NCBI GenBank assembly: GCA_903923175.1
Contig: CAIXWQ010000615.1
Coordinates: 1 to 38,115 of the forward strand
Direction of reading: 5' to 3'
DNA length: 38,115 nt
Source: an uncultured delta proteobacterium
GTDB lineage: Bacteria; Myxococcota_A; Polyangia; Polyangiales; JADJMO01
Every line of letters begins with the position of its first letter. Within the stretch, counting starts at the first letter, position 1. Positions 22,184 to 28,174 of this stretch are shown here, piece after piece. Below the pieces are notes generated by a model. The model made no database searches, had not been told where the DNA came from, and saw nothing but the letters and a program-made list of their open reading frames with translations. Made by a program: the position numbers and the translations under genes.

Positions 22184-24091
22184 ATGCGACGGAGCGGCGT
22201 GAGAGGGTTCGGCGGATGGGTGCTCGGCGCGTTCGCGCTCGCGAATTGCGGCAAGGGGAGCGCCGGAGGCCCCACGGGCACGGTCCAGGATTTCGTCTGC
22301 GACGCCCCGATGCAGGACGCGGTCTCGAACGACACCGAGACCAAGACCGAATTCACGATCACCGACGCCGCGTGGGACGAGACGGCCGTGCGGCAGGTGC
22401 TCCAGGTGTTCGCGTTCGGCGGGCTCGCCAGCGACGCGCAGATCCAGGCCTGGGCCGACATGGCGCCGGCCGACGCGATCAAGGAGATGCTGACGTTCGA
22501 CACCGTCAACGACAAGCTCTCGCCGCCCGATCCGACGATCGCGATGCCGCTGACGCGCGCGAACGGCTCGATGCGGTGCCTCTCGCAGCTCTTCGCGCGC
22601 AACAACCCCGACAACCCGATCCGCGACAAGGAGCGCGCGGGCTACGCGATCGACCAGTGGTCTTCGCCCTCGAAGACCTGGTGGATGGCCTCGCACGTCC
22701 GCGGGCTCAACCCCGTGCGGCAGCGAATCGGCCTCTTCGAGACCAACTACCACATGGCGGTGAGCCAGAACGCCGGCGTCACCAACCAGCAGCTGGTGAC
22801 CTACTACGACGGCATCATGACCGCCCTCGCGCGCGGCGACGCCTACGAGGACGTGCTGCGCGCGTCCGCGCTCACCGCGGCGATCGCGCAGCAGTACCAC
22901 CACGCCACGAACGTCTACCAGAACGGGAAATTCCAGGGCAACGAGGACTTCGGCCGCGAGTACCACCAGCTCTTCTTCGGCATCGTCGGGCGCTACGACG
23001 ACGCGTACACCGACGCGAAGGCGAACTACCACGAGCTGGTGGCGATCCCGAACACGGCCAAGGCGCTCACCGGGATGAGCCTCGGCACCACCACCGAGAC
23101 CAGCGATCAGATCACCTACGGCGATCACGACCACTGGCAGGGGACGCTCGACATCCTCGAGCACCCGATCGACGGCAACAACACCAAGGACCGCATCGTC
23201 GCCCTCTCGCCGCTCGCCATCGCGATGCCCGAGAGCCTCGACAACCTGCCAGTGCGCATCATCCGCATGCTCGCCGACGATCTGCTCGACCCCGAGAGCA
23301 CCGACGTAGGCGTGCAGGACCGCGTCGCCAAGGTGCGCAAGCTCTGGGCCGGAATGGCGAAGAAGAACCTGCTGGAGTTCCTCCGCAAGTACGCCATCTC
23401 GAACGCGTTCCACGACGCCGCGCGCGTGAAGTACTGGACGAGCATCGAGCGCAACCTGCTCTTGGTGAACCAGCTCGACGTCGGCAACGCCGAGGCGTAC
23501 CTCGACGAGTACTCGCCCGCCTCGTTCACGGGGAGCGAGGACGTGACGGTGTTCCGCCCCGCGCACGACGTGTTCGGCGGGCAGACGGGGCTCGAGGCGG
23601 CGGTGACGGCCGACGTCTTCCGCAACGCCTACAACCGCGCGGTCGACGCGTCGTGGTCGCTCACGCGGGTGGACGAGACGACCAACGGCACCACGATCTG
23701 GAAGAAGGACTGGACGCCGCTCGTGCCCAAGGACGCGGGCGGCAAGGTGCGCGTGAAGGCCACCACCGAGTGGCTCTGGCAGCGCGTCTTCGCCGACGGG
23801 CTCGCCAATCTCGGCACGCTCGAGCGGGCGCACCTGTATGCCATTCTCGCCAGCGGCACCGATCTCGCCTACTGGATCGATCCGTCGAATCCCACGCAGG
23901 TCTACGCGAAGGCCGATCTCGAGACGAGCAACGCGCTCAAGACGCAGGTGGCGGGCGCGGAGCAGGCCCTGATACGGCTCGACGATCCCGATCCGAAGGT
24001 GGCCTCCGACGCGGGCTACCGGCTCTCGCTCGCGGTGAATTTCATGTCGTCGCTGCCGTACATGTTCGCGCAGCAAGGGGTGAGCAAATGA
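22184..24091 (+). CDS. DUF1800-like secreted protein, paired with DUF1501
   Basis: The protein has 635 residues. A short N-terminal hydrophobic stretch ends with FALANC, a noncanonical lipobox. The body is mostly helical and carries family-like segments: VRQVLQVFAFGG, the WWMASHVRGLNPVRQRIGLF block and GREYHQLFFGIVGRYDDAYT, as in DUF1800 proteins. DUF1800 and DUF1501 genes almost always occur as pairs; here the stop overlaps the next start (ATGA). Role unknown; envelope-associated. The start at 22184 has GAGGAG only three bases upstream, which is tight. An ATG at 22094 is possible but would put 30 non-signal residues first. Confidence 0.82.
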   Translation: MRRSGVRGFGGWVLGAFALANCGKGSAGGPTGTVQDFVCDAPMQDAVSNDTETKTEFTITDAAWDETAVRQVLQVFAFGGLASDAQIQAWADMAPADAIKEMLTFDTVNDKLSPPDPTIAMPLTRANGSMRCLSQLFARNNPDNPIRDKERAGYAIDQWSSPSKTWWMASHVRGLNPVRQRIGLFETNYHMAVSQNAGVTNQQLVTYYDGIMTALARGDAYEDVLRASALTAAIAQQYHHATNVYQNGKFQGNEDFGREYHQLFFGIVGRYDDAYTDAKANYHELVAIPNTAKALTGMSLGTTTETSDQITYGDHDHWQGTLDILEHPIDGNNTKDRIVALSPLAIAMPESLDNLPVRIIRMLADDLLDPESTDVGVQDRVAKVRKLWAGMAKKNLLEFLRKYAISNAFHDAARVKYWTSIERNLLLVNQLDVGNAEAYLDEYSPASFTGSEDVTVFRPAHDVFGGQTGLEAAVTADVFRNAYNRAVDASWSLTRVDETTNGTTIWKKDWTPLVPKDAGGKVRVKATTEWLWQRVFADGLANLGTLERAHLYAILASGTDLAYWIDPSNPTQVYAKADLETSNALKTQVAGAEQALIRLDDPDPKVASDAGYRLSLAVNFMSSLPYMFAQQGVSK

Positions 24092-25590
24092 GCGCGATGG
24101 ATCGGCGCGGGTTCCTCACCAGGCTCGGCGCGCTCGGCGCGGTCGGCGCGGCCGCGACGGCGGGCGCCTCGGCGTTCCTCCTCGGCCCGCGCGCCGCGAT
24201 GGCCGACGGCCTCCCGAAGGCGTTCGGGCGCAAGCTCGTGAACCTGGTGTTCAACGGCGCGCCCGATTTCCGCCACCTGATCGTGCCGAAGCCCGCGACC
24301 TCGGACACGACCGCCTACGGCTACTACTACTGGAAATACCGCTCGAGCTCGCACTACATCGACGGCAACAAGCCGGACACGTGGCAGAGCCGCTACGACT
24401 CCGACTACGACCACGTGACCTCGATCGGCGGCGTGGCCGTCCCCGAGTTCGGCGTGCTGAAGCTCGCGGGGTGGCTGAAGGATCAGATCGTCGCGGGCAA
24501 CGTGGCGATCGTCTCCAACGTGAAGCACTCGGAGAACCGCGATCACGCCCACTCGCTGCTGATGCTGGAGAGCGGCGATCTCACGACCAGCGCGTTCGCG
24601 ACCGATCGCGACGGCTGGGGCGGCCGCCTCGCCGACGCCCTCGGCGGCAACATGTTCTCGATGACCCGGCAGCGGCTCCTGTTCGCCAATCTGCCGAAGG
24701 GCTCGAAGAGCCAGATCATCTCGGCGCGCGACACCCGCAAGTTCGGGCTCGTGAAGTCGACCGCGACCGACTGGAAGGAGGGGAGCAAGGCCGTCTCCGA
24801 TCGCGCGCTCTCCTCGTACTACGCGGCCAAGCGCGACTCGATCGATCCTTCGTCGCCGCACGCGCAGTTCGTGCAGACCGAGCGGCTGCTGCGCGATTTC
24901 AGCAACGCCGTGCAGTCGCGCCTCGGCTCCAACGCGGTGCCGGCGGCGATCGCCGCGCTGTTCTCCGGCGACTCCCCCACGCTGAAGCGCAACCCGAACT
25001 TCGGCGAGGAGATGCGCAACATCTACGACTGCCTCGCCTGCGAGGACCTCAAGAGCGCGGCCGGCGCGCCCTTCGGCTTCCGCGTCGGCTCGGTCGACTA
25101 CGGCGGCTGGGACAGCCACAAGAACCAGCGCGACCAGATCGAGCCGCAGTTCGCGGAGATCTTCGGCGCCGGCGGCGGGCTCGACGTGCTCCACCAGGCG
25201 GTCGCGACCGACATGCCGGGGGCGCTCTCGAAGCTCGTCTTCACGGTCGCGGGCGAATTCGGCCGCCAGCTGCACTCGAATGGCGATCGCGGCACCGACC
25301 ACGGGCGCGGCAACTACGTCTTCGTGATCGGCGACGGCGTGAAGGGCGGCATCTACGGCGACATCTTCCCGATGGAAGAGATCACCACGAAGATCGACGG
25401 CCTGAACGCGTACGAGGCCTTCAACCGGGACATCACCGGCAAGACGGCCTTCGACCGTGTGTTCGGTGCGGTCGGCGACTGGGTCGGCGAGAGCGACACC
25501 ATCGGCGACCTCGTCTTCCCCAACCGCGCGAGCTCGCCGCTCGAGGCGGGCGTCGCGCTCACGCGCAGCTCGCTCTTCAAGTCGCCCTGA
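24088..25590 (+). CDS. DUF1501 protein exported by the Tat pathway
   Basis: The protein has 500 residues. MDRRGFLTRLG followed by a hydrophobic stretch and PRAAMA is a clear twin-arginine signal. Family landmarks are HSENRDHAHSLLMLESGD, VDYGGWDSHKNQRDQ, GEFGRQLHSNGDRGTDHGRG and VFVIGDGVKGGIYG. DUF1501 is related to alkaline phosphatase/sulfatase-like folds, and the Asp/His residues in DHGRG and GWDSH resemble metal ligands; activity has not been shown for the family as far as I know. Tat export suggests it folds, perhaps with metal, in the cytoplasm first. It is translationally coupled to the DUF1800 gene by the ATGA overlap, which supports a common complex. Confidence 0.9.
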   Translation: MSAMDRRGFLTRLGALGAVGAAATAGASAFLLGPRAAMADGLPKAFGRKLVNLVFNGAPDFRHLIVPKPATSDTTAYGYYYWKYRSSSHYIDGNKPDTWQSRYDSDYDHVTSIGGVAVPEFGVLKLAGWLKDQIVAGNVAIVSNVKHSENRDHAHSLLMLESGDLTTSAFATDRDGWGGRLADALGGNMFSMTRQRLLFANLPKGSKSQIISARDTRKFGLVKSTATDWKEGSKAVSDRALSSYYAAKRDSIDPSSPHAQFVQTERLLRDFSNAVQSRLGSNAVPAAIAALFSGDSPTLKRNPNFGEEMRNIYDCLACEDLKSAAGAPFGFRVGSVDYGGWDSHKNQRDQIEPQFAEIFGAGGGLDVLHQAVATDMPGALSKLVFTVAGEFGRQLHSNGDRGTDHGRGNYVFVIGDGVKGGIYGDIFPMEEITTKIDGLNAYEAFNRDITGKTAFDRVFGAVGDWVGESDTIGDLVFPNRASSPLEAGVALTRSSLFKSP

Positions 25591-25666
25591 GCCTGCTACG
25601 GCCGCGGTTTCTCCGCGCGCTCGGCGAGCGCCGCGCGGCCCTGCCCGCGCGGTGTAAGGCGGCGTA

Positions 25667-25706
25667 GCCTCCGGGCGTTCACCCCGCGTCCCGCTCGCCC
25701 GGAGGC
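25667..25706 (+). promoter_or_regulatory. Inverted repeat that would sequester the ribosome binding site of the DUF4349 gene
   Basis: GCCTCCGGGCG (25667-25677) pairs perfectly over 11 bp with CGCCCGGAGGC (25696-25706) around an 18-base loop. The right arm contains GGAGG (25701-25705), the Shine-Dalgarno site five bases before the ATG at 25711. In mRNA this hairpin would block initiation unless opened. Confidence 0.6.
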
Positions 25707-25710
25707 CGCC

Positions 25711-27129
25711 ATGTCGCTTCGTTATGCTCGCTTCTTCGGACTCGTCGTAGCCCTCCCGCTCGCCGCTTGCGGGGGAGGGGGCGCCTACAAGGCCGCCGCC
25801 TCCGCGCCCCCCTCGTACGGCGGAGAGGCCTCCGGCGGGAGCTTCCACGGAGGCGTGACGACCAACGGCGTGCCCGGCGCCTACGCGGCCCGCAGCGCGC
25901 CGCCGAGCGCCCCCATGCCGGCGGCCGCCTCGGACGAGCGCGTCGTCGTGAAGGCCCAGGCGTACAGCGAGGACGTCGCGGTCGCCGAGAGCACGAGCGG
26001 CGGCGACGGCGGTGGCACCGTGGCGAAGGAGCCCAGCGGTCCGCAGCCGCTTCCGCCGCCGAAGCCGAGGGACGACGTGGGAACGAGCGACGGCGACGGC
26101 GTCACCAACGTCACGACCGCCGGGACCGGCAACGCGAACGTGCAGCCGGGCACGACCCAGGCCCCCGCGCAGGCGAAGGAGATGCTCGACATCGAGGCGA
26201 ACATGACGCTCGCCGTCGAGTCGGTGCGCGACGCGGCCAAGCGCGTGCGCGAGGTGTCGAAGGAGTACGGCGCCAGCGTCACGGGCGATCAGGTGCAGGA
26301 CGAGGGCTCCTACCAGCGCGGCGCGTTCGAGATCCGCGTGCCGAGCGAGAAGATCGACGCGTTCCTCGAGGCGATCACCGGGCTCGGCACCGTGCGCTCG
26401 CGCGACGTGCGCGCGACCGACGTCTCCAAGCAGTACTTCGACTCGCAGATCCTCCTGCGCAACCTCGAAGTAACCATGAAGCGCTACGAGGAGATCCTCG
26501 CACAGGCGAAGAACGTGCAGGAGGTGCTCGTCGTGGAGCAGGAGCTCACGCGCCTGCGCGGCGAGATCAACCGCGTGAAGGGCGAGCTGCGCTTCATGCG
26601 CGATCGCGTGTCGCGCTCCACGCTGCACCTGCAGATCGTGCCGAAGTCCGTCGACACGAGCCCGCCGCCCGAGGTCCCCGAGGCGAAGCTCTTCCCCGGC
26701 GTGCGCGGCACGATCCTCACGGACCTGACCGGCGACGGGCACAACACGTACTACGGCCTCGGGATGTCGATCCTCTTCCTGCGCTCGTTCCAGGTCGATT
26801 TCGACGTGCTGCGCCACGGCGACTCGGTCTTCGCGTCGAACGGCAGCGAGGGGCGCGCGTTCCTGGTCACGATGGGCGGCGACATCTACTCGGACTTCTT
26901 CGGCAGCGGTCGGCGCGCGTTCCTCAACCCGTACATCGGCCTGCGCGGCGGCTACGCCCGCATCGAGGGGAAGAACAACGCGCTGGTCGCCGGCACGCTC
27001 GGCCTCGAGCTGTTCCGCTCCAAGGGCGTGCTGCTCGATCTGCAGGCGCGGCTGCACCTGTTCTTCGGCAACGGCGACGGGGCGCACGCCGGCATCCAGC
27101 CGGCGCTGGGGCTGAACGTGGCGTTCTGA
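25711..27129 (+). CDS. DUF4349 lipoprotein with a C-terminal beta-barrel-like domain
   Basis: The protein has 472 residues. A signal peptide ends at PLAAC (lipid Cys20). A long Gly/Ser/Pro linker (~22-160) leads to the DUF4349 domain (~165-315), with NMTLAVESV, FEIRVPSEKIDAFLEAI, SKQYFDSQILLRNLEV and a coiled-coil LVVEQELTRLRGEINRVKGEL. The rest (~330-472) is strand-rich: NPYIGLRGGYARI, LVAGTLGLELF and VLLDLQARLHLFFG, ending GLNVAF with a terminal Phe, typical of outer membrane barrels. Most DUF4349 proteins instead end with one membrane helix. ATG 25711 with GGAGG is clear. Predicted localisation: outer membrane, with the DUF4349 coiled coil in the periplasm or outside; function unknown. Confidence 0.82.
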   Translation: MSLRYARFFGLVVALPLAACGGGGAYKAAASAPPSYGGEASGGSFHGGVTTNGVPGAYAARSAPPSAPMPAAASDERVVVKAQAYSEDVAVAESTSGGDGGGTVAKEPSGPQPLPPPKPRDDVGTSDGDGVTNVTTAGTGNANVQPGTTQAPAQAKEMLDIEANMTLAVESVRDAAKRVREVSKEYGASVTGDQVQDEGSYQRGAFEIRVPSEKIDAFLEAITGLGTVRSRDVRATDVSKQYFDSQILLRNLEVTMKRYEEILAQAKNVQEVLVVEQELTRLRGEINRVKGELRFMRDRVSRSTLHLQIVPKSVDTSPPPEVPEAKLFPGVRGTILTDLTGDGHNTYYGLGMSILFLRSFQVDFDVLRHGDSVFASNGSEGRAFLVTMGGDIYSDFFGSGRRAFLNPYIGLRGGYARIEGKNNALVAGTLGLELFRSKGVLLDLQARLHLFFGNGDGAHAGIQPALGLNVAF

Positions 27130-27135
27130 GGCTCG

Positions 27136-27148
27136 GGCCGGCTCGGCC
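27136..27148. terminator. Short hairpin between converging genes
   Basis: GGCCG and CGGCC form a five-pair stem with a GCT loop in the 31-bp gap between the DUF4349 stop and the converging lipoprotein stop. A weak candidate two-way terminator. Confidence 0.28.
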
Positions 27149-27160
27149 GCGCGCGCGTCG

Positions 27161-28174
27161 TCACCGGAAGCAGGCGTCGCTGCCGGTCGTCGCGCGCGTC
27201 AGCACGCAGCCGGCGTGGGTCGCAGGGTTCACGAAATAGAGGTCGAGCGGCTCGTCGCTCGGCGTCGCGCGGCGCACCGTGCAGCCCGGCGTGGTCGTGC
27301 AGGCCGGCGCGCCGGGCGTCGTCGGCTCGATCGTGAGCACCCACGTCGTTTCGCGCGTCGGGGCCTCGCTCGCCAGCAACGCGGCCTCGTCGACGAACAG
27401 CACCCCGCGCGGGTCGCGCTCGGCGAGCAGCGCCGCCGCGGTGCCCGAAGCGGGCGTGCGCGCGCCCCACGCGGCGAGCTCGCCGCCGGACTGCGTGGTC
27501 GCGTACGCTGCGCCGCCCGCGGGGCCCAGGAAATCCGAGGGGAACACGAGCCCGCGGACCCACGGGGCGCCCGCCGCGTCGACGAACGAGAGCGGCGTGC
27601 AGCGCGCGATCGCCTCCGCGCCCGCGACGACCTCCGCCGTGCAGGTGGCCTTCGCGAGGAAGATTCGCGTGGCGGGCGGGCCGCCGAGCGGGCCGACGAG
27701 GCCGCGCAGGTAGCCCCGCGTCTCGAGCGTGTATGCGCCGGGGGCGAGGCTCGTGACGACCCCGTCGACGCCGCCCCCCGCGTCGACGCCGATCGCGGCG
27801 GGGCTCTCGGGGAATTCGACGCCCACGCGCGAGGGGCCACTCGTGAGCACCGCCGTCGCGTAGGCGATCCGATTGTGGAGCAGATCGTCGAAGGTCGAGC
27901 CTGCGCCGAAGGCCGTGACGAAGGCGGGATCGCTCGTCCCGAGCAGGTCGGGCGCGCGCACGCGGAGCGCGCCGAGCGCGGACTCGGCGTCGGGCGTGCT
28001 CGCGTCGACGGACGCGTCTCGCTCCGCCGGCGGCGCGGCGTCACCGGCTGCCTCGGCGTCGTCGAGCGCGCCTCCCGCCTCGCGCGGCGTCGAGGCGATG
28101 CGGCCGCCGCAGGAGGCGAGCGCGAACGCCAGCGTGAACGGGCCACAGGCGCGGCGGAGGCGACCCACGCGCAC
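27161..28174 (-). CDS. Lipoprotein of unknown function
   Basis: The protein has 337 residues. The signal peptide ends at FALASC (lipid Cys near 22), followed by an acidic Ala/Asp/Glu linker (~30-65). The remainder is a predicted beta-rich domain, with paired cysteines late in the chain (CTTTPGC, AGC, DACF) that could form disulfides. No family recognised. It starts at GTG (28174); a second GTG at 28168 is equally possible and neither has a clear ribosome binding site. The coding evidence is the signal peptide plus sustained high GC third positions. Confidence 0.75.
   Translation of the reverse strand: MRVGRLRRACGPFTLAFALASCGGRIASTPREAGGALDDAEAAGDAAPPAERDASVDASTPDAESALGALRVRAPDLLGTSDPAFVTAFGAGSTFDDLLHNRIAYATAVLTSGPSRVGVEFPESPAAIGVDAGGGVDGVVTSLAPGAYTLETRGYLRGLVGPLGGPPATRIFLAKATCTAEVVAGAEAIARCTPLSFVDAAGAPWVRGLVFPSDFLGPAGGAAYATTQSGGELAAWGARTPASGTAAALLAERDPRGVLFVDEAALLASEAPTRETTWVLTIEPTTPGAPACTTTPGCTVRRATPSDEPLDLYFVNPATHAGCVLTRATTGSDACFR

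Follow-up and report, generated by a model that had tools for sequence, protein, structure and literature searches.

The DNA analysed here, a window of 38,115 nt, contains a gene for a DUF4349 protein whose ribosome-binding site lies inside one arm of an exact inverted repeat. The question that this locus raises is whether the gene is controlled by a hairpin hiding that site, as the sequence-only reading had proposed, or by some other element under the same letters. The repeat itself was confirmed: GCCTCCGGGCG (25667-25677) and CGCCCGGAGGC (25696-25706) are perfectly complementary over 11 nt, with 18 nt between them. The right arm holds GGAGG, as had been claimed; the arm, said to end five bases before the ATG, ends four bases before it, the five-base distance being that of GGAGG. 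The genes and repeat arms concerned are as follows.

22184-24091, plus strand: DUF1800 gene (PF08811, E = 2.4e-13), overlapping the DUF1501 gene by four bases
24088-25590, plus strand: DUF1501 gene (PF07394, E = 9.5e-17), a possible source of read-through
25667-25677, plus strand: left arm of the repeat
25696-25706, plus strand: right arm of the repeat, including the ribosome-binding site GGAGG (25701-25705)
25711-27129, plus strand: DUF4349 protein gene (PF14257, E = 4.5e-39), with a lipoprotein-like signal (LAAC, Cys20, by eye)

The repeat is unusual for a single gene. It occurs once within the window, and a search of the whole genome with the pattern GTAGCCTCCG-N18..34-GGAGG-N4..9-ATG returned one match. 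Among 245 genes sampled from 333 kb of the same genome, a perfect arm of at least 11 nt over the Shine-Dalgarno (SD) zone was found for the DUF4349 gene alone, and arms of 9 for three; in G003, a genome of the same family, none of 238 genes had an arm of at least 11. Dinucleotide-shuffled leaders reached an arm of 11 in 0.14% (own genome) and 0.04% (G003) of cases, and shuffles of the 5' part of the DUF4349 leader alone in 0.2%. Since the 10.7-Mb genome should hold about 8,000 genes (extrapolated from the 256 that were predicted in 333 kb), roughly ten such stems are nevertheless expected per genome by chance. That the two arms pair perfectly is most probably due to chance.

A different kind of signal was found under the left arm. 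Two short boxes, which recur elsewhere at a fixed distance, stand upstream of the gene, and the left arm fills most of the spacer between them, its last two bases being the first two of the second box.

25653-25659, plus strand: -35 element TGTAAGG, identical in the same-genus relative and recurrent upstream of DUF4349 and sigma loci
25676-25679, plus strand: -10 element CGTT, 16 nt after the -35 (spacing peak 15-16)
25684-25688, plus strand: predicted transcription start, about 25686, placed from the position of the -10
25665-25670, plus strand: TAGCCT, perhaps a housekeeping -10 (TAnnnT) that overlaps the promoter; the same-genus relative has it too

The fixed distance of 15 to 16 nt between the boxes, the second of which begins with CGT, is the form of a promoter for an extracytoplasmic function (ECF) sigma factor. 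Very probably, then, positions 25653 to 25679 are such a promoter (TGTAAGG, 16-nt spacer, CGTT), with the DUF4349 lipoprotein gene as a member of that sigma factor's regulon.

To evaluate the element, we searched upstream of DUF4349 genes in other genomes. The pattern [TC]GTAAG-N16/17-CGT was present at 21 of 30 DUF4349 loci, a fetched subset of 38 matches in 56 genomes, searched up to 700 nt 5' of the aligned part of the protein, a range that may let in sites remote from the true start. Dinucleotide shuffles gave 1/1500 and the opposite strand 1/30. By family, the element was found at 5/5 loci in f1 (the family of the window), 8/8 in f6, 5/7 in f12, 1/5 in f3, 1/2 in f9, 1/2 in f8 and 0/1 in f7, where the contig is truncated. 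Three of the sites (L009, L012 and L028) are less sure, since the first in-frame start follows the CGT by 10 nt or less. A second DUF4349 match in G002 (C104:26709), outside the 30, has a site at 26581-26606. The nine loci without the element, one of them truncated, count against the promoter reading. With the DUF4349 protein as query, a first scan of named genomes gave no matches.

The element is also enriched genome-wide. In ten genomes hand-picked among the 56, mostly element-bearing ones, TGTAAGS-N15/16-CGTT exceeded its reversed control by 65 to 11 in the eight genomes of f1, f6 and f12 (12 to 7 in G033 alone) and showed no excess in two f3 genomes (2 to 1). The genome of the window has 12 sites against 1 reversed when any seventh base is allowed, and TGTAAGG at spacings of 15 to 17 gave 5 against 0. 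When 21 spacings (6 to 26) were counted in eight genomes, hand-picked in the same way, 63 of 108 TGTAAGS...CGTT pairs fell at 15 to 16; this count used the shortest match, and the DUF4349 site of the same-genus relative G001 thus entered at spacing 12. Pooled over all 21 spacings, the pairs show no excess (108 against 146 reversed), which counts against the reading; only 15 to 16 stands out. Nine of the 12 own-genome sites precede frames of at least 116 aa. Of the other three, two are followed by nothing longer than frames of 42 and 84 aa and one, where the contig ends, by no frame, again a point against a promoter. When k-mers were counted in the upstream regions of 333 kb of the own genome and 364 kb of G003, no promoter word of general use clearly emerged.

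The leader was also compared with those of relatives. G001 matches the window over 18 nt beginning at TGTAAGG and again at the CGTT, and its left and right arms carry three changes and one change, respectively. Of the 11 stem pairs, 8 are the same as in the window and the other 3 are broken, with no compensating change in any of them, G001 being the sole relative close enough to align. G002, G003 and G004, of the same family as the window, keep TGTAAGG-N15/16-CGTT, and their spacers and leaders differ.

At the usual distance of ECF promoters from the -10 to the start, RNA polymerase would begin near 25686, about 7 nt after CGTT. The mRNA would then open with some 25 nt of leader that include the ribosome-binding site but not the left arm, and the hairpin could not form in it. 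Since the left arm lies inside the promoter and is probably never transcribed, control by the promoter is more likely than control by a hidden ribosome site. The sequence-only reading, in which a stable stem makes translation conditional, had named a transcript start downstream of 25677 and a lack of covariation in relatives as the findings that would speak against it. Both the predicted start and the uncompensated pairs point that way, and the conserved ECF-type promoter overlapping the left arm leaves conditional translation unsupported. The fallback offered alongside it, that a promoter at the left arm would keep the arm out of the mRNA, is supported by the conserved TGTAAGG-N16-CGTT.

Folding gave a divided picture. 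Folded from the -35 onward, with the left arm included, the SD zone has an unpaired probability of 0.01, in line with the burial that had been predicted. The fold of the whole leader region is no stabler than shuffles (z = -0.55, 55/200 shuffles at least as stable). Loss of the left arm, as in the short transcript, raises the unpaired value of the SD zone to 0.27, which favours the promoter reading, although most of the zone stays paired. The fold starting at 25677 likewise favours it, being weaker than most shuffles (188/200 of them at least as stable). The start codon, however, is unpaired at 0.78 in the long transcript and at 0.12 in the short one, which counts against the promoter reading. 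The short transcript would therefore be not fully open, only free of the stem.

These folds bear on a further role for the stem that is compatible with the promoter. The DUF1800-DUF1501 pair is co-directional with the DUF4349 gene and ends 120 bp upstream of its start, and a putative read-through RNA from these genes, being a longer transcript, would bury the ribosome site and stay untranslated, so that only RNA from the gene's own promoter would make protein. Such insulation has a parallel in the IS10 transposase gene; we consider it unlikely here, given that the stem is not conserved in the closest relative and that chance alone would supply about ten like it in the genome.

The TAGCCT inside the ECF-type spacer might be a second, overlapping promoter, and in the own genome a search for TGTAAGG combined with GTAGCCT matched the DUF4349 site alone. 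That the main promoter is instead a housekeeping one, with TAGCCT as its -10 and a start near 25677, appears distinctly improbable. TAGCCT fits TAnnnT, similar boxes stand by eye before other genes of the window, and its conservation in G001 does count against the ECF reading; yet a promoter scan of 25000-27500 reported no sigma-70-type promoter, and TAGCCT is absent from the leaders of G002 to G004, which retain TGTAAGG and CGTT. A start near 25677 would, in addition, keep no more than one or two bases of the left arm in the mRNA.

We regard a true translational switch, with both arms in the leader and the stem opened as a thermosensor or by a protein or small RNA, as very unlikely. An exact 11-bp stem over GGAGG is rare among genes, and the fold from the -35 buries the SD zone with the start codon left open, as a switch would have it. 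Nevertheless, the left arm sits inside a conserved promoter, and in G001 the stem is broken without compensation, with the SD zone half open (unpaired at 0.51 with the long or the short transcript). The differing leaders of G002 to G004 give SD-zone values of 0.18 to 0.50 from the same starting point, with the start codon in G003 and G004 set at the first ATG that follows CGTT by 20 nt or more. No Rfam family matched the window at the gathering threshold. A thermosensor or riboswitch was rejected on the position of the left arm in the promoter and the loss of the stem in the relative; an intrinsic terminator was also rejected, none being reported at the repeat.

Of the possible starts, only one puts the left arm into RNA from the gene's own promoter, namely that in which TGTAAGG is itself -10-like (TAAGGC here, TAAGGT in G002 to G004) and transcription begins near 25667. 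In these three relatives the -35 box does run on as TAAGGT, which fits TAnnnT and counts against the ECF reading. The base after TGTAAGG varies, however, many sites read TGTAAGC, and neither the fixed distance to CGTT nor the link to one sigma gene would be explained, which makes this start extremely unlikely. Finally, the repeat flanks the predicted start and could be read as an operator, overlapping the promoter, to which a dimeric repressor binds; this is scarcely credible and was rejected, the repeat being single in the window and not conserved in the relative.

The ECF promoter reading is strengthened by the gene with which the element is shared. In G004, an ECF sigma gene is divergent from a gene for a VWA lipoprotein, and the element stands at both, that of the sigma gene reading CGTAAGG. 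The sigma protein matches PF08281 above the cut-off (E = 2e-8) and PF04542 just below it (23.5 bits, cut-off 24). Two of the sigma proteins were scanned and passed the cut-off of TIGR02937, the general ECF model, with no equivalog model among the 25 listed. The regulator is thus an ECF sigma factor, with regions 2 and 4 only. Homologues were found in 31 of 56 genomes (E = 1e-15 or better). In 30 fetched loci of 34 matches, the element lies upstream on the gene's strand in 22; it is within 200 nt in 20 of these and at 357 or 569 nt in the remaining two. L208 and L218 have sites beyond 1.4 kb that were left uncounted, and at L215 the upstream sequence spans just 47 nt. The same promoter upstream of the sigma gene suggests that the gene would be autoregulated.

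We also evaluated named records, which include Sorangium cellulosum, Minicystis rosea and metagenome-assembled genomes (MAGs) titled Myxococcales, Polyangiaceae, Deltaproteobacteria and others; several of their contigs are identical to those of the 30-locus sigma set. The element was within 400 nt of the sigma gene in 74 of 80 loci (the best 80 of 98 confirmed), and for these 80 the controls gave 1/80 inside genes, 3/80 on the opposite strand and 7/1600 in shuffles. Other ECF genes rarely have it: the element was near 1 of 30 (the best Pfam region 4 matches in four genomes of the window's family) and was absent near the eight ECF genes of the own genome that come closest to the sigma, four of which are also among the 30. 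Three contigs (L283, L285 and L299) titled as Klebsiella pneumoniae or Bifidobacterium breve MAGs carry the Myxococcota-type sigma gene with the element; these labels are probably wrong.

The sigma gene and the DUF4349 site tend to occur together. The sigma gene with its element was found in 18 of 21 genomes with the element before DUF4349 and in 1 of 6 without it (Fisher p = 0.004; the table was filled by hand, with G010 omitted as truncated). On one contig (G038:C248, L216 and L014), the DUF4349 gene stands next to the sigma gene in divergent orientation, and both have a TGTAAGC...CGTG element. In the assembly of the window itself (1422 contigs, rated 95.6% complete), a sigma orthologue was not found, the best profile match reaching 78 bits, whereas the same-genus G001 has the gene; a gap among the 1422 contigs is the simplest reason for this absence.

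Downstream of the G004 sigma gene come a gene whose product has one hydrophobic segment and matches no Pfam family, and then one for a TPR-repeat protein. We infer that the one-hydrophobic-segment protein may act as the anti-sigma. The sigma factor, probably freed from it upon a signal, would bind this promoter form and transcribe its own operon together with a set of envelope proteins, and the control of DUF4349 would be transcriptional.

To characterize the putative regulon, the genes after the element were collected from 42 fetched loci of 79 sites (12 in the own genome and 67 in the ten-genome set); the set leaves out the two f3 loci and one locus that gave no frame. Of the 39 genes, some with wrong frames, 26 have a signal-like N-terminus, compared with 160 of 502 sampled genes, and 13 a lipobox-like sequence, compared with 61 of 502; without the seven DUF4349 rows, the values are 20/32 and 9/32. 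The families after the element include DUF4349, YfbK-type VWA, other VWA, VIT-VWA, DUF4139 and DUF2330 proteins. A B12-binding/radical SAM gene follows one site, and of ten element-downstream proteins scanned, three match no family. Two short proteins after the element, at L095 and L128 in two genera, share an ARPPG...PLGG segment behind a lipoprotein-like signal and are possibly a small lipoprotein family of the regulon. Overall, DUF4349 seems to be one member of a regulon that is directed by an autoregulated ECF sigma factor and whose products are mostly secreted or lipid-anchored.

A wider reading, which we hold to be evenly poised between right and wrong, is that an uncharacterised autoregulated ECF group with an unusual GTAAG -35, which may already be numbered in the published ECF classification, runs a conserved envelope regulon across the order (probably Polyangiales) and in further Myxococcota-type genomes. 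This regulon would join DUF4349, YfbK/VWA lipoproteins, VIT-VWA, DUF4139 and DUF2330 proteins in one surface stress or remodelling response, and the chance stem here would also silence the translation of read-through RNA. With DUF4349 and other uncharacterised secreted families tied to one sigma factor, a joint function in envelope stress or surface remodelling becomes testable. A riboswitch-like reading gives way to a testable transcriptional circuit, for which Sorangium cellulosum and Minicystis rosea are suitable named relatives with the sigma gene. The locus also illustrates that a promoter spacer can mimic a stem that blocks a ribosome-binding site.

Two literature passages on DUF4349 deal with Tat-dependent proteins and with resistance mutations, respectively, and neither of these passages concerns its regulation. 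Among the titles and abstract openings searched, no description of a GTAAG/CGTT ECF system was found.

Among known systems, the locus resembles RNA thermometers and riboswitches that sequester the ribosome-binding site in having a stem complementary to GGAGG; it differs from them in that the left arm is predicted to be untranscribed, that no compensatory change was seen in the one close relative, and that Rfam gave no match. The locus also recalls the read-through protection of the IS10 transposase, in which an arm 5' of the start site would pair with the ribosome-binding site only in read-through RNA, although here the stem is not conserved and the read-through is putative. The closest likeness in the promoter itself is to ECF regulons with an autoregulated sigma. 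A passage of PMC8103513 gives AAC in the -35 as an original defining feature of ECF promoters, and the -35 here is GTAAG instead. As in those regulons, however, the promoter has two parts, with a CGT -10 and a spacing of 15 to 16 nt, the same promoter stands at the sigma gene, and the gene after it encodes a protein with one hydrophobic segment.
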